This document shows, piece after piece, positions 8,283-60,786 of a stretch of 62,883 bases of DNA (the first letter of the stretch is position 1; every line of letters begins with the position of its first letter). Under the pieces are notes generated by a model that was not told the DNA's origin, ran no database searches, and was given only the letters and a program-made list of their open reading frames with translations. Source of the stretch: Acidobacteriota bacterium (GTDB taxonomy: Bacteria > Acidobacteriota > UBA6911); contig JAFGIY010000058.1 in the NCBI GenBank assembly GCA_016929335.1, forward strand, positions 1 through 62,883, written 5' to 3'. Both the position numbers and the translations under genes were made by a program.

Positions 8283-10253
8283 ATGAAATCAGCAGATCAG
8301 GCACGGTCTATTTTGGTTATCAGCGGGAATTCGACCTTATCCGATTGGGTCCGCAAGGCAGTCGATCAAGCAATAGCCGTCGACCATGCGGCAAACGAAG
8401 CCGAAGGACTCGGCAAATTGACCAAGTCGCGGCCTGACGTAATAATCCTGGGGCCTCTGAATTCCACTGAATCGGTATTAGCCCTCTATCGTCATCTGCG
8501 GGAAGGCTGGATTTCTCATCACGCCTCCATGCTCATCGTCGAGATTTCCGATGCCGCAAACACATTCCGGATATTGAGCGACGAAAATCTGAACATGAGC
8601 ATCGGCGAACATGTTTTTGCCGCAGGCTCCGCCAGCCCGATCCTGTCTGTCGAAGAGATTGTGCCTACGCTGGCCGAAGCGATCGACCGGGAGCTGAAGG
8701 CGCGCGAAAACCGCTTTAAAAATTCAATGCTGGATCCGGACAAGTTCTGCCTTGTCTGGGAACAGATTCCAGGCCCCGGCGCGTTTGAGATGCGCCAGGA
8801 AACCGTACTGGTTAATGCCCGGCTCGCCGCACGGAGCGGCAGAGTATGCGCGATCAGCATCACGGACAATCCCGGAGGAAATCCCGCGATCGCCACCGAT
8901 ATCCTATGCGCCGAAATACTCAAAGCGGGGATCGAGCCGCTGGTGCACATTGCGATGCGCGACAAAAGCCGGAATCAGGCTGAAAGTCTCCTGTTTCAAC
9001 TGGCGGCCCTGGGTATCCACAACGTATTGATTTTAACCGGAGACTATCCGTCCAATCTTGGTTTCACCGGAAAATCAAAACCCGTCTTCGACCTGGATTC
9101 CGTCAACGGCCTCCGGCTGGTAGCGGAAATGAATCGCGGCATGGAGCGCGAGATCATGCGGAAACCTGTCCGACTGGCTGCTACAAACTTCTTCGCCGGC
9201 GTGGCCTTTTCGCCGTTCAAGCAGATGGAAGCGGAGATGATGGGGCAGTTTTATAAAATGCGGAAGAAAATGGAATCCGGAGCGGATTTCGCCATCACGC
9301 AAGTGGGCTATGACGCGCGAAAATTGCACGAGTTTCAGATGTGGCTCAAAATGACGGGCTGTCAAATTCCGGCTCTGGCTAGCATCTACGTGCTCTCCTT
9401 TCCGGTGGCCAGAACCATGCACGAGAACCATGTGCCGGGTTGTGTCGTTACAAACAAACTGCTGAACCGGATCGCGGCTGAGTCCGAAAGCAAGGACAAA
9501 GGCAAACAGGCCCGCCTCGACAGAGCAGCGAAGATGTTCGCCATCGTCAAAGGAATGGGATACAAGGGAGCCTATATCAGCGGTCAGGGTTTGCCGTTCG
9601 AGAGCATTGATTACATTATTGCGAAGGGGAACGAACTCGCCGGCTCATGGATGGATTTGTTGCCGGAGTTCGAATATCCGCAGGAAAACGGTTTCTATTT
9701 CTTTGAACGGGATGCCGTGAACGGCCTGAACACGGCAACGCCTGCTCGAAAAACACAGAAGCCTAAACAGCCTTGCGTTTATTTATTGTCGCGCTTTGTC
9801 CATACGCTGATTTTTGAACCCGGCAGCCTGTTTTTTAAACCGATGCAGAAACTCATGCGATTCATAGACAAATCGCGCTTTCGGTCCAAAGTCTTCCATT
9901 TCATCGAACGCTGCAGCAAGACTACGCTATACAGCTGCAAGGATTGCGGCGACTGCGCCTTATTCGATGCAGCGTATCTGTGCCCCGTATCGCAGTGTCC
10001 AAAGGATCAGCGGAATGCACCCTGCGGCGGCAGCTTTCAAGGCTGGTGCGAGGTTTATCCAAATAAACAGCTGTGCATCTGGGTACAGGCGTATCTGCGG
10101 CTGAAGGCGCAACATAAGGAAGACGACATCGCGAAATACATCGTGCCTCCGTGCAATTGGGAGCTCTGGCAGACCTCCTCCTGGATCAACTACTTTCTCG
10201 GCAGAGACCACAGCGCAAAACTGCGAGGCATCCGGCCGCCGGCATCGAAATAG
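8283..10253 (+). CDS. metF: Pseudo-receiver/methylenetetrahydrofolate reductase/MetV-like fusion
   Basis: A 656-residue three-part protein. Residues 9-145 have the layout of a response-regulator receiver, but the phospho-acceptor position in PDVIILGP is Gly57 and the N-terminal acidic pair is missing, so it is degenerate. Residues 150-460 are a MetF-type flavoprotein domain (ISITDNPGGNP, LTGDYPSNLG, FAITQVGYD), which interconverts methylene- and methyl-tetrahydrofolate. Residues 500-656 carry the cysteine-rich MetV/MTHFR C-terminal signature (CKDCGDCALFDAAYLCP, QCPKDQRNAPCGG). MetV is normally a separate subunit in acetogen-type reductases; here it is fused. It fits with the corrinoid methyltransferase genes at 32-35 kb. 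No electron-transfer partner is adjacent. Confidence 0.88.
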   Translation: MKSADQARSILVISGNSTLSDWVRKAVDQAIAVDHAANEAEGLGKLTKSRPDVIILGPLNSTESVLALYRHLREGWISHHASMLIVEISDAANTFRILSDENLNMSIGEHVFAAGSASPILSVEEIVPTLAEAIDRELKARENRFKNSMLDPDKFCLVWEQIPGPGAFEMRQETVLVNARLAARSGRVCAISITDNPGGNPAIATDILCAEILKAGIEPLVHIAMRDKSRNQAESLLFQLAALGIHNVLILTGDYPSNLGFTGKSKPVFDLDSVNGLRLVAEMNRGMEREIMRKPVRLAATNFFAGVAFSPFKQMEAEMMGQFYKMRKKMESGADFAITQVGYDARKLHEFQMWLKMTGCQIPALASIYVLSFPVARTMHENHVPGCVVTNKLLNRIAAESESKDKGKQARLDRAAKMFAIVKGMGYKGAYISGQGLPFESIDYIIAKGNELAGSWMDLLPEFEYPQENGFYFFERDAVNGLNTATPARKTQKPKQPCVYLLSRFVHTLIFEPGSLFFKPMQKLMRFIDKSRFRSKVFHFIERCSKTTLYSCKDCGDCALFDAAYLCPVSQCPKDQRNAPCGGSFQGWCEVYPNKQLCIWVQAYLRLKAQHKEDDIAKYIVPPCNWELWQTSSWINYFLGRDHSAKLRGIRPPASK

Positions 10254-32321: not shown

Positions 32322-33122
32322 TTGAAGATAATTGGTGAAAAGATAAATGGGACGCGAAAGCGGGTAAAACAGGCCATAGAGGAACGTGATGCGGCCTTCA
32401 TACAGAATTTGGCCAAGGAACAAGCGTCAGCCGGCGCCGATTGGCTCGATGCCAACGCAGGTACGGCCCCGCAGCGTGAGCCGGACGATCTGATCTGGCT
32501 CGTCGAGAATATTCAGGCGGCGGTCGAAACGCCGATCTGCCTCGACAGTGCCAATCCCAAGGCATTGGAAACGGCGATCAAGGCCGTCAACAAAACCCCG
32601 ATGATCAACTCGATCAGCATGGAACCCAATCGACTGGAAGGCGTGCTGCCGATCGTGGCCGCCAATAAGTGTCCCGCCGTTGCACTCGCAATGGATGAAA
32701 AGGGCATTCCCAAAACAAAGGGTGAGCGAATCGCCATCATCGGGCGCATGCTCGAGAGGACCCGAGCCCTGGGGATTCCGGATGGTGACCTGTATTTTGA
32801 CCCGCTGGCCATGACCATTGCGACGGGCAACGAAAACGGATTGATCTTTTTCGATACCATTCGTGAAATCCGCAAGCAGTTTCCTGATGTCCACATGACA
32901 TGCGGATTAAGCAATATTTCATTCGGAATGCCGGCCCGATCCTTTATCAACCGCGTATTTCTCGCATATTCCATGCAGGCGGGGCTGGATTGCGCCATTT
33001 GCGATCCGAACAACCAGGATATTAAAACCACGATGTTGGCAGCCGAGCTTTTGTTGGGACAGGATAAACATTGTCTGAAGTTCACTCGCGCATTTCGCGC
33101 GGGAGCCTTTGAGAAAAAATAA
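32322..33122 (+). CDS. Methyltetrahydrofolate:corrinoid methyltransferase (MeTr/AcsE-like)
   Basis: A 266-residue TIM-barrel enzyme, the length of acetogen MeTr. Pterin-binding motifs are visible: KIIGEKINGTRK at the start, WLDANAGT, ICLDSANPKALE, MINSISMEPNR, LYFDPLAMTIATGNENG and CGLSNISFGMPAR. It transfers a methyl group between the corrinoid protein and tetrahydrofolate. The start is TTG at 32322 with GAAAGGAG eight bases upstream; no ATG fits. It heads an operon with a corrinoid protein and a URO-D-like methyltransferase, so it is probably the second methyltransferase (MT-II) of an O-demethylase-type system. Confidence 0.92.
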   Translation: MKIIGEKINGTRKRVKQAIEERDAAFIQNLAKEQASAGADWLDANAGTAPQREPDDLIWLVENIQAAVETPICLDSANPKALETAIKAVNKTPMINSISMEPNRLEGVLPIVAANKCPAVALAMDEKGIPKTKGERIAIIGRMLERTRALGIPDGDLYFDPLAMTIATGNENGLIFFDTIREIRKQFPDVHMTCGLSNISFGMPARSFINRVFLAYSMQAGLDCAICDPNNQDIKTTMLAAELLLGQDKHCLKFTRAFRAGAFEKK

Positions 33123-33191
33123 CATCCCGTTCAAGAATGCATTCGTATTCCTGAATAACATTTACCTATAGGAAGTAAAAAAGGAGAGCAT

Positions 33192-33830
33192 ATGTCGAAA
33201 GAATTAATCGATGCCGTCGTTGATATGCGCGAGGAAGACGCAGTAAAAATTGCTGAAAGATTGCTGAACGAAGGTGCAGCGCCTCTTGGCCTTCTGGATG
33301 ATTGCCGTGAAGCCCTCGGCATCATCGGAGACCGGTTTGCGGCAGGCGAATGCTTCGTCCCCGAACTGATCCTGGCCGGAGAAATGCTGCGGCAGATCGG
33401 TGCGATGGTAAAACCGAGAATCTCAGGGACCGGTGGCGCCGCCCAGAAAAAGATCGGCAAGATCGTTTTCGGTACAGTAGAGGGCGACATCCATGACATC
33501 GCGAAGGATATCGTGGTGTTCATGCTGGACGTCAATGGCTTTGACGTGATGGATCTCGGCGTGGATGTTCCGGCCGCAAAGTTTGTCGAAGCGGTCAAGA
33601 GCTTCAAGCCCCAGGTCGTCGGACTCAGCGGATTCCTGACACTGGCCTACGATCCGATGAAAAATACTGTCCAGGCATTGAAGGATGCAGGCCTGCGTGA
33701 CAGCGTGAAGATCATGATCGGCGGCGGACAGATGGATGACCAGGTCGCAGCCTATGCCAAAGCGGACGCTTATGGCAAGGACGCCATGGCGGCCGTCAAC
33801 CTGTCCAAAGGATGGGTAGGAGCGAAATAG
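33192..33830 (+). CDS. Corrinoid (cobalamin-binding) protein
   Basis: A 212-residue corrinoid protein of the MtbC/MtaC-like family. The N-terminal helical cap (1-85) precedes a Rossmann-like B12 domain. The base-off motif, usually DxHxxG, reads D99-I-H101-D-I-A104: the axial His is kept but the Gly is Ala. LSGFLTLAYDPM and KIMIGGGQ supply the other B12-contact segments. It carries the methyl group between the two methyltransferases on either side. AAAGGAG lies seven bases before the ATG. The end of the gene contains the ribosome site of the next one. Confidence 0.94.
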   Translation: MSKELIDAVVDMREEDAVKIAERLLNEGAAPLGLLDDCREALGIIGDRFAAGECFVPELILAGEMLRQIGAMVKPRISGTGGAAQKKIGKIVFGTVEGDIHDIAKDIVVFMLDVNGFDVMDLGVDVPAAKFVEAVKSFKPQVVGLSGFLTLAYDPMKNTVQALKDAGLRDSVKIMIGGGQMDDQVAAYAKADAYGKDAMAAVNLSKGWVGAK

Positions 33831-33832
33831 CC

Positions 33833-35176
33833 ATGCCAAAACCGGAAAATTTCGACAAATTAACTCCCGATCAGAAGCGTCAAGCGCGCCTGGAAGCCTG
33901 GATAAACCACGAAGGACTCGAATTCAAGAATCCGGAGGCGGAAAAAGGCTATCGGGAACGCGCCCAGATGTTTGCCGACGTCTTTCTGATGAAGAAGCCC
34001 AAGCGGGTGCCTGTGGCAGTCGCGACGGGTTTCTACCCGTTCCTGTATGCCGGGTATACTTGCGAAGACGCAATGTACGATTATGAAAAACTCGGCAATG
34101 CAATGAAAAAATTCCACGCCGATTTCTTGCCCGATGCCGCAGCATCTGCAGGGCTTTATATACCAGGAAAAGTCTTGGAAATCCTGGACTATAAGCTCTA
34201 TCACTGGCCGGGTCACGGCGTTCCGGTCAATGTTTCCTATCAATGTGCTGAAGCGGAATATATGAAGCCGGAAGACTATCCTGCATACCTGGGTGATCCC
34301 AGCGATTACTTCATTCACACTTACCTGCCTCGGGTAATGGGAGCTTTGGCCCCCTGGAAAGATCTTCCTACTTTCACCGACCTTCTCGAATTGCCGTTTA
34401 TCCCTTGGGCCATGATCCCCTTTGGCTTGCCGCACGTTCAGGAAACGTTCAAAAAGCTGATGAAGGCCGGCGAAATTTCGCTTGAATGGGCCGGCAAAGT
34501 CGCCGAAATCGACAATGCCTCCATTCAGAATCTGGGGCTGGTGAAATATCAGGGAGGATTCTCGAAGGCTCCATATGATGTAATTGCAGACACCATGCGC
34601 GGCAGCCGGGCGATAATGCTCGACACATTCCGCAAAAAGAAAGAGATCCTGGAAGCTTGCGACATGAATGTGCCCTATATGACGAAAATGCCGTATGGAG
34701 CTTACAGCTGGGGCGCAGCTCCGACTGTATTCTTCCCTCTGCATAAGGGTGCGGACCCATTCATGTCTCCGAAGACCTTCAAGGAATTGTACTGGCCGTC
34801 CTTCAAAGCCGTCATGCTCAATCTGATCAAGGACGGCATGATTCCATTCCTTTTTGTTGAAGGAAGCTACAACCAGCGGCTGGATATCATCACCGATCCC
34901 GACATCCCGGCCGGAAGCACCATCTGGTACTTCGACAAGACGGACATGAAGGAAGTCAAGAAGCATCTCCAGGGCTGGGCATGCTTCTCCGGCAACTTCC
35001 CCTCCTCGCTCCTGAAAACCGGAACGGTCGATCAAGTCAAAGATCATACCAGGCAGCTGCTGGATGACCTGGCCGGCGATGGAGGTTATTACATGGTTAA
35101 TGGCGCGGTGCTGGATGAAGCAGATGCGGACAACCTGCACGCGTTCATCGACACCACCAAAGCATACAATCTTTAG
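33833..35176 (+). CDS. URO-D-fold methyltransferase (substrate:corrinoid, MT-I-like)
   Basis: A 447-residue protein of the uroporphyrinogen-decarboxylase-like superfamily, the length of MT-I enzymes of O-demethylases and longer than heme-pathway HemE (about 350). C-terminal segments FKAVMLNLIKDGMIPFLFVEGSYNQRLDII and CFSGNFPSSLLKTGT are diagnostic. At the strand where MtaA/MtbA carry the zinc ligands H-x-C-G this protein has FVEGSYNQ, so the metal site differs. Operon position suggests it moves a methyl group from an unknown donor to the corrinoid protein. ATG 33833 uses AGGAG eleven bases upstream, inside the previous gene. Confidence 0.88.
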   Translation: MPKPENFDKLTPDQKRQARLEAWINHEGLEFKNPEAEKGYRERAQMFADVFLMKKPKRVPVAVATGFYPFLYAGYTCEDAMYDYEKLGNAMKKFHADFLPDAAASAGLYIPGKVLEILDYKLYHWPGHGVPVNVSYQCAEAEYMKPEDYPAYLGDPSDYFIHTYLPRVMGALAPWKDLPTFTDLLELPFIPWAMIPFGLPHVQETFKKLMKAGEISLEWAGKVAEIDNASIQNLGLVKYQGGFSKAPYDVIADTMRGSRAIMLDTFRKKKEILEACDMNVPYMTKMPYGAYSWGAAPTVFFPLHKGADPFMSPKTFKELYWPSFKAVMLNLIKDGMIPFLFVEGSYNQRLDIITDPDIPAGSTIWYFDKTDMKEVKKHLQGWACFSGNFPSSLLKTGTVDQVKDHTRQLLDDLAGDGGYYMVNGAVLDEADADNLHAFIDTTKAYNL

Positions 35177-47636: not shown

Positions 47637-48749
47637 ATGGAATCCCTAAAAATCCGAATTGATGATCAAGAAATCGAGGTTGCCGAGGGAATGACGATTC
47701 TTCAGGCTGCGGAAAAGGCCGGCATCAAGATTCCCACACTTTGCCATCACCGTGATTTCTCTCCCAGCGGGTCCTGCCGCATTTGCGTGGTCGAACTCGA
47801 GGGATCCAGCCGGTTGGTGGGATCCTGTCATACTCCTGTTGCTAAGGGCATGGTGGTGCATACCCGCTCTCCAAAAGTGCTTTTCGCGCGGAAAGCGACC
47901 GTCGAGCTTCTGCTTGCGGGACATACCGGACCTTGCGTGATGGATTTCAGGGCTGCCCAATGTGAACTGCACACAATCGCATCGGATCTGGAGGTGGCTC
48001 CTCCCAGATTCAACATACAAAGGCCCCGCTTTTATCCGATCGAAAATGTGAGCCCGTATGTCCACCGGGATCTGTCGAAATGCATTTTGTGCTCCCGGTG
48101 CATCAGCGCATGCAGTGACATTGCGGGACAGTATCTGTTCAATACGGGCTACAGGTCTTTTCATACCAAGATCGTCGTAGACAACGATATCGCCCTCGAT
48201 AATGACGTCTGCAAAGACTGCTATGTCTGCGTGGAGTATTGCCCCACCACTGCACTCAGCAGGGCCAAACATCCCGAAGATAAGAAAAGAGGAAAGAAGA
48301 TGGAGTCCCGTACGCCTCAGCCTCAGGCTCGGGAAGCACACTGCGGGAACCTTCTCTCCATGATAAAGAAGGCGCAGGACAAATCCCGCCATGTCTCGCC
48401 GAAATTCATGACCGAGACCGCCGATTCCTGCAATCTTTCCATCAGCGAGGTGTTCGGGGTTTCAACCTTCTACTCTTACATTTCAACCAAACCGCTCGGG
48501 AAGAATGTGATAAGGGTTTGCAGAAGTGTCCCTTGCTACCTGCAGGGATCTCAGATGATCCTGAAAAGTATTGAAGATGAACTCGGAATCAAGCCGGGCG
48601 AAACGACCCGCGACAGGAAGTTTTCTCTGGAGCTGGCTAATTGTATCGGCGCCTGCGATCAGGCCCCCGCTATGCTGATCAACCGGGATGTGCATGGTTG
48701 CCTGACGCCGCAAAAAATTTCCAGGATTCTGCAAAAATATTATTTCTGA
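47637..48749 (+). CDS. Iron-sulfur protein: NuoG N-terminal part fused to a NuoE-like domain
   Basis: A 370-residue fusion. Residues 1-90 are a [2Fe-2S] ferredoxin (Cys36, 47, 50, 64). His96/Cys100/Cys109 resemble the NuoG/HydA His-Cys cluster but lack one Cys. Residues 140-205 carry two [4Fe-4S] sites (Cys149/152/155/159 and 192/195/198/202). Residues 235-370 are a thioredoxin-like NuoE domain with [2Fe-2S] ligands Cys295, 300, 336 and 340. It should pass electrons from the NuoF-like partner, 19 bases downstream. AGAGGAAAGAAG followed by ATG at 48300 sits exactly at the domain junction, so a free NuoE piece could also be made. GGGGGGG precedes ATG 47637. Confidence 0.9.
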   Translation: MESLKIRIDDQEIEVAEGMTILQAAEKAGIKIPTLCHHRDFSPSGSCRICVVELEGSSRLVGSCHTPVAKGMVVHTRSPKVLFARKATVELLLAGHTGPCVMDFRAAQCELHTIASDLEVAPPRFNIQRPRFYPIENVSPYVHRDLSKCILCSRCISACSDIAGQYLFNTGYRSFHTKIVVDNDIALDNDVCKDCYVCVEYCPTTALSRAKHPEDKKRGKKMESRTPQPQAREAHCGNLLSMIKKAQDKSRHVSPKFMTETADSCNLSISEVFGVSTFYSYISTKPLGKNVIRVCRSVPCYLQGSQMILKSIEDELGIKPGETTRDRKFSLELANCIGACDQAPAMLINRDVHGCLTPQKISRILQKYYF

Positions 48750-48768
48750 GCCCTGGAGGAGAACCGCT

Positions 48769-49992
48769 GTGCAAAAAAGAGTGGTTTTAAAAAATTGTGG
48801 GCAAGTGGATCCCAGGAGCATTCATTCTTATATAAAAAAGGGCGGCTTCAAGGCTCTTGAAAAGGCGAAGAAACGGATGACGCCCGACAGCATCATCGAG
48901 GAAGTGATTGCATCCGGGCTGCTGGGCCGGGGCGGCGCCGGTTTTTCCTGCGGGCTGAAATGGAAACTGGCACGGGCGCACGAAGCCGATCAGAAATTCA
49001 TCATATGCAATGCGGATGAAGGTGAAGTCGGCACATTCAAGGACCGGTATATACTGCAACACGATCCGTTCACTCTGATTGAAGCACTCGCCATCGCAGG
49101 CTGGGCAATCGGGGCCGGCAAAGCATTCATTTACCTCCGCGCCGAATACCATTTTCTTTCCGGACTGATTCTGAATGCCGTCAGCCAGGCAAAAGACAAA
49201 GGTTTTCTCAAACATCTGGATATCGAGCTTCGCGAGGGAGCCGGATCATATATGTGCGGCGAAGAATCAGGGCTTATGAATTCCATCGAGGGGCTCAGGG
49301 GTGAAGCCCGCTATAAACCGCCATTCCCGCCGCAAAAAGGACTATGGGGAAAACCCACCATCATCAACAATGTCGAAACACTAATGAATATTCCGCAGAT
49401 CATCCTGAAAGGCAGCTCCTGGTTTCAAAGCATGGGAACCGAGCGCAGCAAGGGGACCAAAGTGTTTTCCGTCAGCGGAGATGTTGCGGCGCCCGGAGTG
49501 TACGAACTGGAGCTTGGAAGCAGTCTTTCCGAGCTGATCCTGAAGCTGGCTTCCGCCAGAGACATAAAAATGGTCCAGGTCGGCGGAGCCTGTGGAAGAA
49601 TCATACCCGCAGATGGAATCGATATTCCTCTGGCCTATGAAACTGTCCTGGGCTCAGGCGCCATCCTTGTGTTTAACCGGACCCGGGACGTGATCGATGC
49701 GATGTACCGGAACATGGAATTCCTGGCCGACGAGTCCTGTGGCCGATGCACGCCGTGCCGGGATGGATGTGAGGCAATGCTGGATATTCTGGGAAGGCTG
49801 GCCGCGGGAGAAGGAGCCGCCGAAGATATCGGCGCACTGGAGGATCTGTCGCAGGTGATGTCCCTGTCTGCTATGTGCGGCCTCGGCCAGAGCGCTTCTC
49901 TTCCTCTCATGGACACGTTGAAATATTTCCGGAAGGACTATGAAAACCGGATTGCGCAATCGGTGTATTTGAGGTCTCTCCGGCAAGCATAA
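48769..49992 (+). CDS. NuoF-like NAD(P)H-binding flavoprotein
   Basis: A 407-residue diaphorase subunit. FMN/NADH motifs are LGRGGAGFSCGLKW, CNADEGEVGTFKDR and GAGSYMCGEESGLMNSIEG. An SLBB-type domain follows (VYELELGSSLSELI), and the [4Fe-4S] ligands are Cys324, 327, 330 and 370 (SCGRCTPCRDGC, SAMCGLGQS). It lacks extra ferredoxin domains. With the preceding NuoG-NuoE fusion it forms an NAD(P)H-oxidising or -reducing module as found in electron-bifurcating enzymes and NAD-linked formate dehydrogenases. The start is GTG with GGAGGAG eight bases upstream. Confidence 0.93.
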   Translation: MQKRVVLKNCGQVDPRSIHSYIKKGGFKALEKAKKRMTPDSIIEEVIASGLLGRGGAGFSCGLKWKLARAHEADQKFIICNADEGEVGTFKDRYILQHDPFTLIEALAIAGWAIGAGKAFIYLRAEYHFLSGLILNAVSQAKDKGFLKHLDIELREGAGSYMCGEESGLMNSIEGLRGEARYKPPFPPQKGLWGKPTIINNVETLMNIPQIILKGSSWFQSMGTERSKGTKVFSVSGDVAAPGVYELELGSSLSELILKLASARDIKMVQVGGACGRIIPADGIDIPLAYETVLGSGAILVFNRTRDVIDAMYRNMEFLADESCGRCTPCRDGCEAMLDILGRLAAGEGAAEDIGALEDLSQVMSLSAMCGLGQSASLPLMDTLKYFRKDYENRIAQSVYLRSLRQA

Positions 49993-50111
49993 TGCCGCAT
50001 TCTTATCAACAGCGGCCGAAAGGGTAGAGTCTTTATCGATGACTTTTTCGTTTTATGCAAAGAGGTTTTGCCCTCTAAAACAGCTGAAGCCAATCGCCAC
50101 GGACAAAGAAG

Positions 50112-50139
50112 CTTACAGCTGAGAGCTGAAGGCCGACAG
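50112..50139. repeat. Heptamer tandem array (CTGAAGG type), four units
   Basis: CTTACAG, CTGAGAG, CTGAAGG and CCGACAG run with a seven-base period in the 212-base gap between the NuoF-like gene and the following [2Fe-2S] gene. Confidence 0.6.
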
Positions 50140-50204
50140 CGCGCGGCCTCCATGATTCTTCGAAAATTTGGCTGCGGCTACAGGCCGCGCCAGGAGTAAA
50201 TACG

Positions 50205-50828
50205 ATGCCCAAGAAAGCAATGAAAGCAGCCGCTGTTAAACTGACACGATACGCATGCCCTTATTGTCAAAACACATTTGAATCATTTGAGGAAATAAAA
50301 TCTCACATCCTGGCCGCCCATGCTGCAGATGAACTGCCCGAACCCGAGGGAAACATCCATGTCGTCATTAACGGTCAAAAGCACGGTTTTCGGGTCGAGC
50401 CGGATTGGACACTGCATTATCTCATTCACGATGTACTCGGCCTGACGGGAACCAAGTTGATGTGCGACCACGGCGCATGCGGTTCGTGCACTGTCATTAT
50501 GAACGGACGCCCTATCCTTTCCTGCATGACGCTGGCGATCGAATGCAACGGAAAGCGGATCGAGACCGTCGAAGGCGTTGCCGAGGCCAGGCACCCGCTG
50601 GTTGAAGAATACGTGAAACACCACTGCATGCAATGCGGTTATTGCACTCCCGGATTTGTTGTTACAGCGAAAGCTCTTCTGGACAGGAATTTAAATCCAA
50701 CCGAACAGGAAATCCGTGAAGCCCTGGGCGGCAATCTCTGCCGATGCGGCACCTATCCACAGCATCCAAAAGCAATCCTCTCAGCCGCCAAAATCCTGCG
50801 TGAGGCCTGGCATGACTCGCATCCTTGA
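50205..50828 (+). CDS. Molybdenum-hydroxylase-type [2Fe-2S] subunit with an N-terminal zinc-finger-like extension
   Basis: A 207-residue CoxS/XdhC-type protein. The plant-ferredoxin-like [2Fe-2S] site uses Cys87, 92, 95 and 107 (CDHGACGSC, plus SC), and the second site uses Cys144, 147, 179 and 181 (CGYC, CRC), as in xanthine-dehydrogenase small subunits. Unlike the family norm, residues 15-40 form a Cys18-Cys21-His34-His39 pattern (C-x2-C-x12-H-x4-H) that looks like a C2H2 zinc finger. There is no Tat signal, so it is cytoplasmic. It precedes the FAD subunit by 144 bases and follows NuoF-type genes, suggesting electron exchange with NAD(P)H. Confidence 0.92.
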   Translation: MPKKAMKAAAVKLTRYACPYCQNTFESFEEIKSHILAAHAADELPEPEGNIHVVINGQKHGFRVEPDWTLHYLIHDVLGLTGTKLMCDHGACGSCTVIMNGRPILSCMTLAIECNGKRIETVEGVAEARHPLVEEYVKHHCMQCGYCTPGFVVTAKALLDRNLNPTEQEIREALGGNLCRCGTYPQHPKAILSAAKILREAWHDSHP

Positions 50829-50874
50829 GGAAACATCCGGCAATACCATGAAAGGATTTATAAGCACAAGAGAA

Positions 50875-50940
50875 CAGGAATGCAGAATTCAGGAATCAGA
50901 ATTCAGAATTGTCTGCATCGGGATGCTGATTTCTGAATTC
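50875..50940. repeat. Heptamer array (CAGAATT type) with an inverted partner
   Basis: Five seven-base units (for example TCAGAAT) cover 50875-50909. GAATTCAGGAATCAG (50885-50899) is complemented at 50926-50940 in 14 of 15 positions, so the region can fold into a hairpin between the [2Fe-2S] and FAD genes. Confidence 0.7.
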
Positions 50941-50972
50941 CGTTTTCCGGGTTCTGTCGCGGGAGGGATCCT

Positions 50973-51956
50973 ATGAAAAAGTTTGCGCATATCAGCGCCC
51001 GGACCATCGATGAAGCGGTGTTGGCGCTCAGAAGGCATGGGAATCGGGCAAGCATTATTGCCGGCGGCACAGATCTGCTGGGAAAGATGAAAGATGCAAT
51101 ACTTCCAGGGTATCCCGAAGCACTCATAGACATAAAAAGCATACCTGGTCTGGATTTCTTCAAAGAAGAGCGGGGCGTTTTGCGCATCGGCGCGCTCATG
51201 CGGCTGGAAGACATCGCGAAGGAACCTTTAATACGGGAAAAGTACGCGGCATTGGCTCAGGCCGCCGGAAGGACGGCTTCTCCACATCTCCGGGAAATGG
51301 GCACTCTGGGCGGCAATCTTTGCCAGGATATTCGATGCTGGTATTACCGGAATCCGAATAACCGGTTCCCCTGCCTCAGGAAAGGGGGCGGCCGATGCTA
51401 TGCCATCGATGGAGATAATCGATACCATTCCATTATGGGAGGGAGCGTCGAAGGCGGTTGCTATGCCGTACACCCCAGCGATACGGCTCCTGCGCTGATT
51501 GCATTGAATGCCGGGATAAAGACTTCGAAAAGAACGCTGGACGCCGAGGACCTCTTTCAGGTGGATGTGGCTAAAACAACCGTCCTGGATTCCGACGAAA
51601 TTGTGACCGAAATCTGCGTGCCGGCGCCGAAACCGGGTTCCAGGAGCGCCTTCATTAAATTCGCCATACGCAAATCCATCGACTTCCCAATCGTCAATTG
51701 CGCGGCAATGATCACAATCAAAAGAGGAGTCGTGGCGGGAGCCCGAATCTGCCTTAATGCAATCGCCGTCAAACCATACCGGGCCGACAAGGCGGAAAAG
51801 ATTATTTTAAAGAAGCGTATCGATGAAAGTCTCGCCGAGGCCGCAGGCGCCGCAGCCATGTCGGACGCGAAGCCTCTGGAGCGTAACGGTTATATGGTCC
51901 AGATTGCGAAGGTTCTGATAAAAAGAACTATCCTGGCCTGCGTAGATCCCAATTGA
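50973..51956 (+). CDS. FAD-binding subunit of a molybdenum-hydroxylase-type complex with [4Fe-4S] loop
   Basis: A 327-residue CoxM-type flavoprotein. FAD contacts are IIAGGTDLLGKM and MGTLGGNLCQD. An insertion of about 40 residues holds Cys122, Cys134, Cys142 and Cys163 (CWYYRN, PCLRKGGGRC, GGCYAVHPSD), the arrangement of the extra [4Fe-4S] cluster in the beta subunit of 4-hydroxybenzoyl-CoA reductase. It would pass electrons between the [2Fe-2S] subunit and FAD. The catalytic molybdopterin subunit expected next is absent; instead a MoaD/ThiS-like gene begins one base after the stop codon. Confidence 0.92.
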   Translation: MKKFAHISARTIDEAVLALRRHGNRASIIAGGTDLLGKMKDAILPGYPEALIDIKSIPGLDFFKEERGVLRIGALMRLEDIAKEPLIREKYAALAQAAGRTASPHLREMGTLGGNLCQDIRCWYYRNPNNRFPCLRKGGGRCYAIDGDNRYHSIMGGSVEGGCYAVHPSDTAPALIALNAGIKTSKRTLDAEDLFQVDVAKTTVLDSDEIVTEICVPAPKPGSRSAFIKFAIRKSIDFPIVNCAAMITIKRGVVAGARICLNAIAVKPYRADKAEKIILKKRIDESLAEAAGAAAMSDAKPLERNGYMVQIAKVLIKRTILACVDPN

Positions 51957-51957
51957 T

Positions 51958-52200
51958 ATGCGCATAACGGTTCATATTTACGCCCGCCTCCGCTGCCATC
52001 TTCCTGCAGCAGAAAAGTACTTTAAGGATAGGGAATGGGACGTGCCCAATGGTTCCACCATACAGCACGTCGTAGAAAAGCTGAAATTGCCCAGGGAAAT
52101 CCCTGTTTCCTTTCTTCTTAACAACAACAGCGTAGATCAGATGACACCTCTTAAGGAAGGAGACATCATCCACATATTTCCGCAAATGGGAGGAGGATAA
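51958..52200 (+). CDS. MoaD/ThiS-family small sulfur-carrier-like protein
   Basis: An 80-residue beta-grasp protein. RITVHIYARLRCHLP, a central VEKLKLPREIPV and the strand-turn EGDIIHIFPQMGGG at the C-terminus match the MoaD/ThiS fold; the terminal Gly-Gly is what becomes thiocarboxylated. It could serve molybdopterin synthesis or a dedicated sulfur or tungsten-cofactor role. The ATG starts one base after the FAD-subunit stop, so it belongs to that operon. No moaE or thiF is adjacent. Confidence 0.88.
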   Translation: MRITVHIYARLRCHLPAAEKYFKDREWDVPNGSTIQHVVEKLKLPREIPVSFLLNNNSVDQMTPLKEGDIIHIFPQMGGG

Positions 52201-56743: not shown

Positions 56744-57808
56744 CTATTTGAGACCCAGATCCCTAATCTTCGCAGGCGTGAATACGCCGCGATGGATCAG
56801 CTTCGCTGCAAGCTCGTTGCAGTAATTGCATTCACCGCATTCCTTATTGCAGGAGGCGACTTTTTTAAAAAATCCGATTGCATCCAGGCTCTTGTTGTCC
56901 AGGTGCATGAGATGGGACATGCCGACGGAATACAGGTTCCCGGCCATCAATTCCAGGAGATCGCCGTCCCAGCTTTCATTGAGGTAGGCCTCAAGGGATC
57001 TGGCTATCATGCTTTTTGAACTGGTTCTGCCCACGAGCTTGAAATAGCCGGTGATCTCCGCGTATTTTGAGGCATCTTCCGGGCGGATCCATCCGGATTT
57101 CAGAAGCTGTGAGGGATCGCTCTTCGACTGCTGAATGCAGTTCAGGCTGAAAACATTATCTTCCGCCTTCACGCCTCCGGCCGTATCCGGTTTTCTCGAT
57201 TTATGCGAGATGTAATTGAAATGGAATTTTCGGAAAGCACATCGGAAAAGACATCCTTCGTTTACCATCAGCTTTATTTCCGCATGCGTTGCTTCCTTGA
57301 TTCTCTTCAAAAGGGCAAGATCGCGATTAATATCGACATCGGGAGTGATCGCATCGGCTCCGGCTTTTCGGAAAATGACGGCTTTCTGAACGCAATCTAT
57401 ATCGCCCAGAACGGAGGCGCAGATTTCAAGATTCGGGAACCGCCTCCGGACTTCCCGGATATAGAGCGGATTGGCAATGGTAACGGCCTCCACTCCGAGA
57501 TCTTCATGAATCCGCGTGAGGTAGTTCATGGTTGATTTCAGCACTTCCGGTGAGTACCAGTCGCTGCCCTCGCAGATTGAGTTGATCAGCAGATTAACCC
57601 GGATCCCCTCATCGTGTATCTTCTCCACCGCGCCTGCAAATGTGCTGAAGTCCAATTCCGGCGTAATCCGCCCCGAGCCGGAGTATTCCTGAGGCCCCGA
57701 CAGATAGACTTCTCGTATGCGATTGCCGTTGTGCGATTTGAAACGGAATATTTCCGCAAGTGTGTCCGGATCATTGTTATAAGGGACCGAAAACTCGAGT
57801 TGCCCCAT
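56744..57808 (-). CDS. U32-peptidase-family iron-sulfur-like protein
   Basis: A 354-residue TIM-barrel protein of the U32 family (IREVYLSGPQEYSG, RVNLLINSICEGSDW, LEICASVLGD, EIKLMVNEGCLFRC). Cysteines group as Cys186, Cys190 and Cys224 plus a C-terminal C-x3-C-x2-C-x2-C at 320-330 (CNKECGECNYC), which suggests iron-sulfur clusters. Characterised relatives (UbiU/UbiV, TrhP, RlhA) support oxygen-independent hydroxylation of ubiquinone precursors or RNA; protease activity is doubtful. It lies between an unknown gene and the FkbM gene in the exported-hydroxylase operon. The 57-base upstream gap keeps it in the same transcript. Confidence 0.85.
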   Translation of the reverse strand: MGQLEFSVPYNNDPDTLAEIFRFKSHNGNRIREVYLSGPQEYSGSGRITPELDFSTFAGAVEKIHDEGIRVNLLINSICEGSDWYSPEVLKSTMNYLTRIHEDLGVEAVTIANPLYIREVRRRFPNLEICASVLGDIDCVQKAVIFRKAGADAITPDVDINRDLALLKRIKEATHAEIKLMVNEGCLFRCAFRKFHFNYISHKSRKPDTAGGVKAEDNVFSLNCIQQSKSDPSQLLKSGWIRPEDASKYAEITGYFKLVGRTSSKSMIARSLEAYLNESWDGDLLELMAGNLYSVGMSHLMHLDNKSLDAIGFFKKVASCNKECGECNYCNELAAKLIHRGVFTPAKIRDLGLK

Positions 57809-57865: not shown

Positions 57866-58993
57866 CTATGCGGTTATTGCAGAACCTTTCGTATCGCGCA
57901 GAGCTTCAACGACGGGAATCAGCTGCAAACGGTCGAAGCCGACGTTGAGGATACGAATTCTCGAAGGCATTTCCTCCGCCCTCTCATTCCTGTCGTTTGA
58001 TCCGGCCGGATCGCCGGTGTCCGGCCACAAATCGCCTGCCGCGAGAAAGCTTCCTCCTGCCGGACGGAACAGGCTGTCGGCAAGCTCCATTTTCCCCAGT
58101 GCCTCATTCCGGCTTATAGCCTGAGTATCGACACACCACAGCAGCAGATCGGGCCTGCAGAATTTTTTCACATCCGCTATCAAGGAGATTCTCTCCGGTC
58201 TTTCAGAGACATACAAAAGAGTCAATCCGCTTGCCAGCAGGATTAGATGATCAACACCGAAAGTGTACCACTCGCGGTCGGAACTGGCATTCAAGGCATT
58301 ATAGATGCCCTCTTTGAATTCAGATCGGATCCCTATAAACCGATTCAGTCCGGTTGAATGCAGAATAAAATCCGGGACGGCAAAAATCGATTTGTGAGGT
58401 TGGCTGAAAAAAAAGGAAGTGGATTCCATTGGCGAAGGAACTTCCTCCGTTGGAGCAAAGGCGGATGATTTGGCGCGGTCGGCCGCTTGCAGTTCGCGGA
58501 CAGGGACCCGCAAAGCTTTGTCTGCATCAAGCAGGTTCGCCAGGCTGAGAATCGCCCATTTTTCGTATCCTCCGCGATAGACTGCCGGAAAAACTTCGGT
58601 AATTCGGGCGAGGGCGGTTTCCTCAAAACTACCCAGGCTTTTCCGCTTCTTCAATAAGTCAAAGAGCGGATCAAATAATTCCCTCGCCAGGCTTTCTTCC
58701 GGATCACGGAGATACCTCCGGATGCGATTTACTTCCGGCGTATCTTCCATGGAAAGCAATCCTGCGGCTTCATTCCCAGCTTTACAGTACTCTTGCTGCA
58801 GTCTGCGGGATTTCGAGACAAATTCGGGAAATTTTTCTTCGAGGAAAGCCTTTCTGGCCGCATTGAACCTGTCGTAAAAACCGGGCCGTACTTCCCCGGG
58901 AATACTCGTTACGGACTCCCCGATTTCAATTTCAGGGTTAGCCGAAATGAAATCCGTTAATTCCGAATATGCCCGGAGAAAACTGTCCGACAT
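57866..58993 (-). CDS. Conserved-looking protein of unknown function
   Basis: A 375-residue soluble protein without a recognisable family. It is mostly helical in the first 190 residues (FYDRFNAARKAFLEEKFPEFVSKSRR), then alternating strands and helices. A few Cys residues (Cys69-like in QEYCKAGNEA; CRPDLLLWCVD) are scattered and do not form a cluster motif. GGAG lies eight bases before the ATG at 58993; a GTG three codons upstream is an alternative. It sits 109 bases downstream of the FAD subunit and 57 bases upstream of the U32-like gene, so it probably works with that set. Confidence 0.7.
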   Translation of the reverse strand: MSDSFLRAYSELTDFISANPEIEIGESVTSIPGEVRPGFYDRFNAARKAFLEEKFPEFVSKSRRLQQEYCKAGNEAAGLLSMEDTPEVNRIRRYLRDPEESLARELFDPLFDLLKKRKSLGSFEETALARITEVFPAVYRGGYEKWAILSLANLLDADKALRVPVRELQAADRAKSSAFAPTEEVPSPMESTSFFFSQPHKSIFAVPDFILHSTGLNRFIGIRSEFKEGIYNALNASSDREWYTFGVDHLILLASGLTLLYVSERPERISLIADVKKFCRPDLLLWCVDTQAISRNEALGKMELADSLFRPAGGSFLAAGDLWPDTGDPAGSNDRNERAEEMPSRIRILNVGFDRLQLIPVVEALRDTKGSAITA

Positions 58994-59102
58994 TGAAGTC
59001 ACTCCATCCTTTGCAGCCTTCGGCTATTGGGCTTTGCGGACGAAAGAGGCGGGATTGCAGAATTGCCCGGTGTCGATTTCCGATCGCCGACAGACGAATG
59101 GA

Positions 59103-60065
59103 TTATGCACACGCCAATATGGTTCTTTTCACCATTGTTTTGGCGATTTGTATCTTCCATTTATTCCTGTCGCCTGGGAGCGCCCTCGCGGAAGCCACGG
59201 CGGCGGCGCCGGCAGCATCCGCGATCGATTCATCTACAGATTTTCCTTTGATGACCTCCTCGGCCTTCACTGCCCGATAAGGCTTATTGTATACCGCATT
59301 CAGACAGATGCGGGCGTCGCCATTCCCGATCATTGCCGCGCAGTTCACAATGGGGAAGTCAATGGACTTGCGGATGGCAAATTTGATGAAGGCGCTCCTT
59401 GTATTTGCGGCCGGAGCAGGAACTTGAATCTCGGTAACGATTTCGTCCGCGGCAAGAACCGTGGATCCGGGGATTGTCATATCCCAGAAATTTTCAGCTT
59501 CTATCAATCGCTTGTTGGTTTTAATCCTGGCATTCAGAGCCACGAGCGCCGGCGCCGTATCGCTTGGATTGACGGCGAGACACATTTTCACAGCTCCGAA
59601 TATCGAATGATATCTATTATCTCCTGCCATGGCGAAGCATGTCTTGCCGCCTTTGCGGATACAATTGAACCTGTTATCGGGAATCCGGAAATACCAACAC
59701 CTGTTGAGCTGGCAGATGTTGCCCGCAATGGTGCCCATTTCGCGGATATGAGGAGTGGCAGTCCGATGTGCCCCTTCGGCCAGAGCTGCATATTTCTTTC
59801 GGACAAGATCGCTCTTGGCGATATCTTCGAGTCTGGTCAGGGCGCCGATTTTGAGCACGCCGCCCTCTTCCCTGATGTAGTCCATCTCCGGAATAGTCTT
59901 CAGGTTGACAACCACATCCGGATATGCCGGCAAAATCTCAAATCTCATTGTGCCCAGAAGGTCCGTACCTCCGGAAATCACCGCGGCTTTTCCGGCCCGT
60001 AGAATAGATGCCGCCTCATCAATTGATTTCGCATCTATGTGGGCAAATTTTTTCCATGTCTTCAT
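59103..60065 (-). CDS. Second FAD-binding subunit with [4Fe-4S] loop
   Basis: A 320-residue CoxM-type protein, clearly paralogous to the one at 50973. FAD motifs are VISGGTDLLGTM and MGTIAGNICQL. The [4Fe-4S]-type insertion has Cys123, 135, 143 and 162 (CWYFRIPDNRFNC, KTCFAMAGDN, KMCLAVNPSD). It has no signal peptide of its own; if exported it would ride with the Tat-signal-bearing [2Fe-2S] partner encoded 37 bases upstream. No molybdopterin subunit follows. Confidence 0.92.
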   Translation of the reverse strand: MKTWKKFAHIDAKSIDEAASILRAGKAAVISGGTDLLGTMRFEILPAYPDVVVNLKTIPEMDYIREEGGVLKIGALTRLEDIAKSDLVRKKYAALAEGAHRTATPHIREMGTIAGNICQLNRCWYFRIPDNRFNCIRKGGKTCFAMAGDNRYHSIFGAVKMCLAVNPSDTAPALVALNARIKTNKRLIEAENFWDMTIPGSTVLAADEIVTEIQVPAPAANTRSAFIKFAIRKSIDFPIVNCAAMIGNGDARICLNAVYNKPYRAVKAEEVIKGKSVDESIADAAGAAAVASARALPGDRNKWKIQIAKTMVKRTILACA

Positions 60066-60102
60066 TTCAGGCTCCTGTTTCTCCGAGGGCTTTCAGAATG
60101 CA

Positions 60103-60786
60103 TCAGGCCTTCTGTTTTATATTCCGAGCGGCTTCCAGAACAGCCGGCGGATGCCGCTGATAGGTAGCACAACGGCAAAGGTTGCCTCCCAAAGCGTCCC
60201 GGACGTCCGCTTCGGTCGGATTGCTGTTTTTATCCAAAAGTGCTTTGGCCGTGCAGACAAATCCCGGCGTGCAATATCCGCACTGAAATGCATTGTTGTT
60301 GATATATGCCTGAATAATTGGATGCTTCGCCTTCGCAATGCCTTCCGCAGTTTCTATCGTTGCGCCATTGCACTCACAGGCAAGTGTCAGGCAGGAAAGA
60401 ACCGGCCTGCCGTTCATGATAACGGTGCAGGATCCGCAAGCTCCCTGCCCGCCACACCAGTCCTTGGGTGACGTGAAGCCTATTTCATCGCGCAATAGCT
60501 GCCGCAGGCTCCAATTCGGCTCAACCATATAGCGGTATTTGCCCCCATTGACGGTGAGCTCGACGGCACGCAGTTCGGGCGCAATATCTTGAGCCGACGG
60601 AGAGCCACCTTTTGCCCCGGACGCGCCTGCCTTTGACTGCGCTGCTGCTTCCGTCGAGATGGCAATGGATCCCAAAGTGGGCGCTCCTACAGCCAGTCCC
60701 GCATCCTTTAAAAAATCCCGGCGGGATATGGAGCCGGATCCTTCTTTGTTCTCTTTTTTATTCGGTTTATTTTTATCGTCTGACAT
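60103..60786 (-). CDS. Second [2Fe-2S] subunit with a Tat signal peptide
   Basis: A 227-residue CoxS-type protein. A twin-arginine signal (SRRDFLKDAG, residues 21-30, then a mild hydrophobic stretch ending near AAAQ) shows export of the folded, cluster-loaded protein. [2Fe-2S] ligands follow in WCGGQGACGSC and SCLTLAC, with the second site CGYC and CRC. About 50 residues of linker separate signal and domain. It heads the minus-strand operon with the FAD subunit, an unknown protein, the U32-like protein and FkbM. The tatA at 31.7 kb could serve it. Confidence 0.94.
   Translation of the reverse strand: MSDDKNKPNKKENKEGSGSISRRDFLKDAGLAVGAPTLGSIAISTEAAAQSKAGASGAKGGSPSAQDIAPELRAVELTVNGGKYRYMVEPNWSLRQLLRDEIGFTSPKDWCGGQGACGSCTVIMNGRPVLSCLTLACECNGATIETAEGIAKAKHPIIQAYINNNAFQCGYCTPGFVCTAKALLDKNSNPTEADVRDALGGNLCRCATYQRHPPAVLEAARNIKQKA

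Follow-up and report, generated by a model that had tools for sequence, protein, structure and literature searches.

Most enzymes of the xanthine-oxidase (molybdenum hydroxylase) family are oxidative, according to the account in PMC12771579. The same account describes 4-hydroxybenzoyl-CoA reductase, which accepts reduced ferredoxin, and urolithin C dehydroxylase (Ucdh) of Enterocloster bolteae, which as a purified enzyme reduces urolithin C with NADH. Here we describe an operon of five genes that joins NADH dehydrogenase subunits to subunits of a molybdenum hydroxylase. It lies in the genome of an Acidobacteriota bacterium (G000; assembly GCA_016929335.1), and the window that we analysed is the whole of one contig of that genome, C97 (62,883 bp). 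The operon encodes a fusion of the NuoG N-terminal module with NuoE, a NuoF-like subunit, a small subunit (CoxS1), a flavin adenine dinucleotide (FAD) subunit (CoxM1) and a MoaD/ThiS-like protein. We propose that these genes probably supply the electrons for a molybdenum enzyme, and that the catalytic half of this enzyme is likely to be encoded in another part of the genome. The product is likely to be an NADH-linked, molybdenum-dependent relative of 4-hydroxybenzoyl-CoA reductase and the aldehyde oxidoreductases, and it would probably remove oxygen from carbon compounds with NADH or, run backwards, add it.

The operon and its probable large subunit

Open reading frames and domain calls with Pfam and NCBIfam confirmed all five plus-strand genes in the place and order reported by an initial annotation, which had been made from the sequence alone (Table 1). 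The gaps between the genes are, in gene order, 19, 212, 144 and 1 bp. That annotation had also stated that the window contains no large subunit, and a genome-wide search for MoCoBD_1 agreed, as none of its 20 matches fell on C97. Because the operon is interior to the contig, the missing large subunit cannot be put down to a contig edge. We also considered a dispersed repeat as the scar of a lost gene in the 144-bp gap between CoxS1 and CoxM1 and rejected it; the best other match in the genome was 81% over 42 bases (E 0.005).

Related loci were collected by scanning named genomes with a CoxM alignment; the best 80 of 156 relatives were kept and annotated by BLAST with the window proteins and eight large subunits. 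A large-subunit match was present in 67 of the 80 loci. NuoF lies on the CoxM strand in 21 of them, and 20 of these 21 have the large subunit (L) inside the operon, where it stands in the order S-L-M or L-S-M with the small (S) and medium FAD (M) subunits, or comes first. No small subunit was called in L104, L105 and L112, and the large subunit of L099 is divided over three open frames. The only NuoF locus without a large subunit (L095) comes from the Acidobacteria metagenome-assembled genome nzgw75, and its gene layout is that of G001, a congener of G000. Judged by record titles, the hosts include Desulfobacteraceae, Syntrophaceae, Desulfosudis oleivorans, Dehalococcoidia and other Chloroflexi, and Gracilibacteraceae; several bacterial phyla have members with the complete operon. 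The NuoG and NuoE parts are fused in 10 of the 21 NuoF loci, separate in 8 and cut or incomplete in 3.

Several relatives carry further genes after the operon: XdhC in L113, XdhC and a MobA-like gene in L115, and in L100 a MobA-like gene and one for an SBP_bac_11 solute-binding protein, which we take to be of the molybdate-binding ModA type. MobA-like proteins and ModA act in the supply of molybdenum cofactor and molybdate. XdhC is described as serving the Mo-cytosine-dinucleotide cofactor (PMC12771579). Together these genes point to a molybdenum enzyme that uses Mo-cytosine dinucleotide.

A corresponding large subunit of 828 aa is encoded in G000 on contig C25 (22483-24966), with no small or FAD subunit beside it. 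It contains the domains PF02738, PF20256 and PF01315 and the active-site Glu motif that is present in 22 of 22 aligned large subunits and in all 120 homologues listed. We surveyed G000 and 40 relatives (41 genomes) for orthologs, defined for CoxM1 by at least 70% identity. CoxM1 orthologs occur in three genomes, G000, G001 (79%) and G008 (73%), the next match being a fragment at 64%. Orthologs of the C25 large subunit above 70% occur in the same three genomes (77% in both G001 and G008); the next-best matches reach 43% over the full length and 50% for a 148-aa fragment. In G008, CoxS1, CoxM1 and the large subunit are directly consecutive on a contig that begins inside CoxS1. In G001, as in G000, the large subunit is unlinked to the operon, and none was found in the flanks of the G001 operon, where the contig extends for about 10 kb on one side and 5 kb on the other. 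The three proteins formed one clade (100) in a quick tree built from 87 large-subunit rows (83 of them different), with support only from the Shimodaira-Hasegawa-like approximate likelihood ratio test (SH-aLRT). Sister to this clade is L098, a member of the Desulfobacteraceae with a full operon (95), and the enclosing group of 16 rows (92) has its remaining 12 rows all from NuoF operons; a wider clade of 28 rows includes five from loci without NuoF.

These comparisons suggest that the large subunit is most likely an ordinary member of the operon that was displaced in the window's lineage, because 20 of the 21 NuoF loci carry one and because of its placement in the tree. We consider it very probable that the C25 protein is the partner of the window's electron-supply genes. 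Thus, of the possibilities raised initially, that of a large subunit lying elsewhere is borne out by the C25 ortholog and by the relatives, while the description of an operon type with no catalytic subunit has to be given up: relatives with a large subunit in the operon were the finding that the annotation itself had set as its refutation.

The operon is a distinct variant of a known family, marked by a C2H2-type finger in the small subunit and by an aspartate in place of a cysteine at a NuoG cluster site. The N-terminal finger of CoxS1 scores 20.5 bits with Pfam zf-C2H2_4, below the 27-bit cut-off, and is modelled with predicted local distance difference test (pLDDT) values of 82-95 for the block. 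The motif is present in 118 of the 120 homologues listed (the window protein counted) and in 18 of the 20 small subunits called in the NuoF loci plus L102 and L109. The two exceptions among these 20 are L102, which is cut by its contig start, and L115, in which an Asp replaces one His. We rejected the idea that the finger is exclusive to the NuoF operon, as the motif occurs within 110 residues in 10 of the 35 other small subunits from the 80 loci. Most of the solved small subunits that it matches have 153-175 aa, with alignments of about 150-170 columns, compared with 207 aa for CoxS1. At the NuoG position, Asp was present in 19 of 19 sites found, the window's included, whereas the four PDB homologues with printed alignments have Cys. 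The initial annotation mentioned neither the finger nor a second small/FAD pair at 59103-60786. In a mechanical scan of 23 related loci, 11 had a small open reading frame ending in GG that begins no more than 6.5 kb past CoxM.

Table 1. Features of the operon and of the second small/FAD pair in the window
Feature	Position	Strand	Remarks and basis
NuoG N-terminal module + NuoE fusion, 370 aa	47637..48749	+	2Fe-2S, two 4Fe-4S and NuoE thioredoxin-like 2Fe-2S motifs
Predicted His-Cys3-type cluster site, Asp for middle Cys	47922..47963	+	H96, C100, D103, C109; in NuoG part
NuoF-like NADH/FMN (flavin mononucleotide) subunit, 407 aa	48769..49992	+	Pfam/NCBIfam
CoxS1, Mo-hydroxylase small subunit, 207 aa	50205..50828	+	Two [2Fe-2S] motifs
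C2H2-type finger of CoxS1	50256..50321	+	C18, C21, H34, H39; zf-C2H2_4 below cut-off, motif, model
CoxM1, FAD subunit, 327 aa	50973..51956	+	Pfam/NCBIfam, alignments
Four-Cys loop of CoxM1, predicted [4Fe-4S] site	51336..51461	+	C122, C134, C142, C163
MoaD/ThiS-like protein, 80 aa	51958..52200	+	C-terminus GGG; open reading frame list, Pfam
Peptidase U32-family protein	56744..57808	-	Adjoins CoxM2 in several relatives
ORF378	57866..59002	-	No Pfam or NCBIfam match; family in 24 of 80 related loci
CoxM2, second FAD subunit	59103..60065	-	63% identity to CoxM1, same four Cys; BLAST, alignment
CoxS2, second small subunit	60103..60786	-	Twin-arginine-type N-terminus SRRDFL; no finger motif

Proposed complex and direction of the reaction

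From gene content, orthology, motifs and the NuoF signature, we infer how the complex may assemble, which cofactors it may hold, in which direction it may run and on what it may act. We lean slightly towards a model in which an NADH-fed molybdenum complex, with the C25 protein as partner, carries out the net reduction of an aromatic or heteroaromatic substrate. NuoF would oxidise NADH at its FMN, and the Fe-S clusters of the NuoG/NuoE fusion would carry the electrons on to CoxM1, with its loop cluster and FAD. The two [2Fe-2S] clusters of CoxS1 would then hand them to the molybdenum centre of the C25 large subunit, by a direct and non-bifurcating route. The MoaD-like protein may help to supply the pterin cofactor. 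The substrate would be dehydroxylated, as by 4-hydroxybenzoyl-CoA reductase or Ucdh. We chose reduction because the large subunit has 4-hydroxybenzoyl-CoA reductase as its best PDB match and because Ucdh offers a precedent for reduction driven by NADH.

Several observations weigh against this model. The G000 assembly consists of 258 contigs and has an estimated contamination of 6.3%; the composition of C25 is like that of the window (tetranucleotide r 0.964, compared with 0.975 between two parts of the window), which argues against C25 being a contaminant. In G001 the match to the large subunit is at the start of a contig and contains one stop. Additionally, NuoG/E does not track the rest of the operon cleanly within the genus. 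Its orthologs are present in G000, G001 (73%) and G009 (60%), and a search of G008 (93% complete) found none; G009 has NuoG/E-NuoF (60%) at a contig end, and orthologs of CoxM1 or of the large subunit were not found in that genome (81% complete). The NCBIfam equivalog cut-offs for 4-hydroxybenzoyl-CoA reductase (TIGR03193/03194/03195) are all missed, with, in that order, 137.8 bits against 257.8 for the small subunit, 250.9 against 994.55 for the large subunit and 153.7 against 404.55 for the FAD subunit. Last, the alignment of the CoxM1 loop leaves the direction of the reaction less certain.

An alignment of 7 FAD subunits shows no variation in the four cysteines of this loop, and all 23 FAD subunits from L102, L109 and the related NuoF-type loci have the pattern. 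The PDB matches of CoxM1 are, in rank order, the aldehyde oxidase medium subunit 5y6q_B, 4-hydroxybenzoyl-CoA reductase (1rm6_B) and PaoB, which align with four, three and four of the four cysteines, respectively. Since 5y6q_B and PaoB belong to aldehyde-oxidising enzymes, the loop does not favour reduction, and we rejected it as proof of that direction. The initial annotation was therefore right that CoxM1 has a four-Cys loop, but the likeness to the reductase is incomplete and the loop does not tell the direction. Net reduction, taken on its own, would have been about an even call; the loop alignment has moved it slightly below that.

The same complex might instead work oxidatively, as an NAD+-dependent hydroxylase or aldehyde dehydrogenase: with water it would oxidise the substrate, and NADH would be formed. 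We regard this as a real possibility that falls short of being probable and is somewhat less likely than reduction. It would agree with the oxidative chemistry of most of the family noted above and with the full alignment of the loop to 5y6q_B and PaoB, and a Liv-type transporter gene set after the operon of L103 (three of its genes scanned) would fit the uptake of a growth substrate. It agrees less well with the large subunit, whose closest PDB relative is a reductase, or with the hosts, which by title include sulfate reducers, Syntrophaceae and Dehalococcoidia.

The four-Cys loop could have a further role. A family scan of another FAD subunit of this group, on contig C149 of G000 (L034 6393-8723, minus strand), showed a GltD-like NAD(P)-binding domain inside its loop, and FAD subunits of G001 and G008 (L049 8687-11068 and L050 7882-10266) have insertions at the same place. 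It is thus plausible that the loop is a docking site for NAD(P)H dehydrogenases.

Solo large subunits and the probable NADH link

The second small/FAD pair lies on the minus strand of the window, where CoxS2-CoxM2 is followed by ORF378 and then by the U32 protein, and no large subunit lies beside the pair in the window. CoxM2 has an ortholog in 8 of 9 congeners and a fragment in G002; CoxS2 was called beside CoxM2 in five. A large subunit of the sister group adjoins a CoxM2-type gene in L118, L123 and L143 (the latter from G005). The model of ORF378 has a mean pLDDT of 87.2, and a fold search against the PDB at E <= 0.001 gave no match; ORF378 is possibly a new fold or an accessory factor. Also in the window are a gene with a methylenetetrahydrofolate reductase domain and a C-terminal DUF5981 domain (8283-10253, plus strand) and pterin-binding, corrinoid and URO-D methyltransferase genes (32322-35176, plus strand). 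In congeners (L040, L044 and L045) the pterin-binding/corrinoid/URO-D set, whole or partial, is near CoxM2-U32.

Large subunits without a neighbouring FAD subunit are frequent in the genus. Among the matches listed there are 38 related large-subunit entries from ten genomes, of which 33 are on contigs without an FAD subunit, one is 17.7 kb away from one and four are within 10 kb, although short contigs may hide partners and some entries are partial. Four complete small/large/FAD sets are also encoded in G000, on C18, C93, C104 and C149. The count of 33 supports, but does not prove, a genus-wide arrangement in which one or two small/FAD modules would serve interchangeable solo large subunits, by analogy with the shared reductases of many oxygenases. 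One module would be fed by NADH and the other would carry a twin-arginine export signal. We put this idea forward tentatively, somewhat short of an even call.

It is related to another reading of the operon, that NuoG/E-NuoF-CoxS1-CoxM1 is a shared power supply for several large subunits of G000 and not only for that of C25. G000 has eight such large-subunit genes (on C25, C173, C102, C127, C241 and C28, and two on C119), BLAST found no small or FAD subunit in the annotated stretches around them (the upstream flank on C241 being only about 2 kb), and the large-subunit groups are scattered across the FAD-subunit tree. However, resolution is weak in the FAD and NuoF trees, whose starred branches force only one change, and of the large subunits only that of C25 co-occurs with CoxM1. 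We consider this reading unlikely and keep the C25 protein as the partner. A formal tree test for swapping of large subunits was abandoned because both trees were too weakly resolved.

The link of the complex to NADH, already suggested initially, is very probable from the domain content and the conservation of the operon. How NADH is used can be judged from three diagnostic sites at which bifurcating and non-bifurcating NuoF-type subunits have different residues, the bifurcating signature being A/E-F-M, F and GGPSG (Losey et al., PMC7311640). We mapped them onto the window NuoF ourselves through the alignments with its PDB matches. The window protein has T89-F-K91, Y161 and GGACG at 272-276; it is non-bifurcating at all three sites and lacks the signature of bifurcating HydABC/FdhABC-type beta-subunits. 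Among related proteins, all 20 NuoF sequences checked have the Lys and Tyr; at the first site 16 have Thr and 4 have Ala, which is also found in bifurcating enzymes; and the third site, captured in 17, never reads GGPSG. A bifurcating or confurcating complex that couples NADH and ferredoxin to the molybdenum enzyme is thus very improbable, and the confurcation that had been thought plausible finds no support. In the PDB, NuoF best matches subunits of hydrogenase, formate dehydrogenase and Nfn-type complexes, one of which, 8a6t_B, is titled electron-bifurcating; yet NuoF has 407 aa, compared with about 600 for the best-matched HydB-type chains. A partner of the tungsten aldehyde:ferredoxin oxidoreductase (AFOR) type, as the MoaD-like gene might hint, is scarcely credible, because although one of the 16 AFOR_C matches in G000 (C25:31337-32527) lies about 6.4 kb from the C25 large subunit, none is on C97, in 20 of 21 related loci the operon itself includes a molybdenum-hydroxylase large subunit, and in three relatives it is followed by XdhC or MobA-like genes.

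Comparison with known systems

We found no description of a NuoEFG-linked molybdenum hydroxylase operon, of orphan large subunits or of a finger-bearing small subunit in the titles and abstracts that our searches of open-licence PMC articles brought up. If our reading is true, sulfate reducers, syntrophs, Dehalococcoidia and Acidobacteriota share a widespread NAD-linked subfamily of molybdenum enzymes with its own NADH dehydrogenase. This would matter for a molybdenum-enzyme family with few known reductive enzymes. The finger and the NuoG aspartate would be recognisable marks that make environmental members testable, and from the orphan large subunits it would follow that the catalytic subunits of this family can be uncoupled genetically from those for electron transfer.

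The system belongs to the xanthine-oxidase family, with small and FAD subunits in the window and the large subunit on C25. It resembles 4-hydroxybenzoyl-CoA reductase of Thauera aromatica (HcrABC, 1rm6) in its three-subunit architecture, in the aligned region of the Glu that we take to be catalytic, and in the four loop cysteines of the FAD subunit, three of which align with those of CoxM1. It differs in the large subunit, where HcrA has RGHG and the operon-type proteins have RCE[QM], and in missing the equivalog cut-offs. To our knowledge, HcrABC has no NuoEFG partner. The FAD subunits of 5y6q and PaoABC (5g5g) are homologous to CoxM1, with all four loop cysteines aligned, and the twin-arginine small subunit of PaoABC, an exported enzyme, resembles CoxS2. 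However, CoxS1 has no twin-arginine motif, the PaoC and PaoA models score below their cut-offs here, and neither 5y6q nor PaoABC is known to have an NADH dehydrogenase module.

Two other systems are alike in how they use NADH. Ucdh is an NADH-driven reductive member of the family, a likeness by description and not by sequence, and it is described with three subunits (PMC12771579). HydAB of S. aciditrophicus and Hyd1ABC of S. wolfei are described as having a non-bifurcating NuoF-type subunit that feeds a catalytic subunit (PMC7311640), as we propose for the window's NuoF. These are NADH-dependent [FeFe] hydrogenases, whereas here the partner would be a molybdenum hydroxylase and the NuoG-type site has Asp for Cys.

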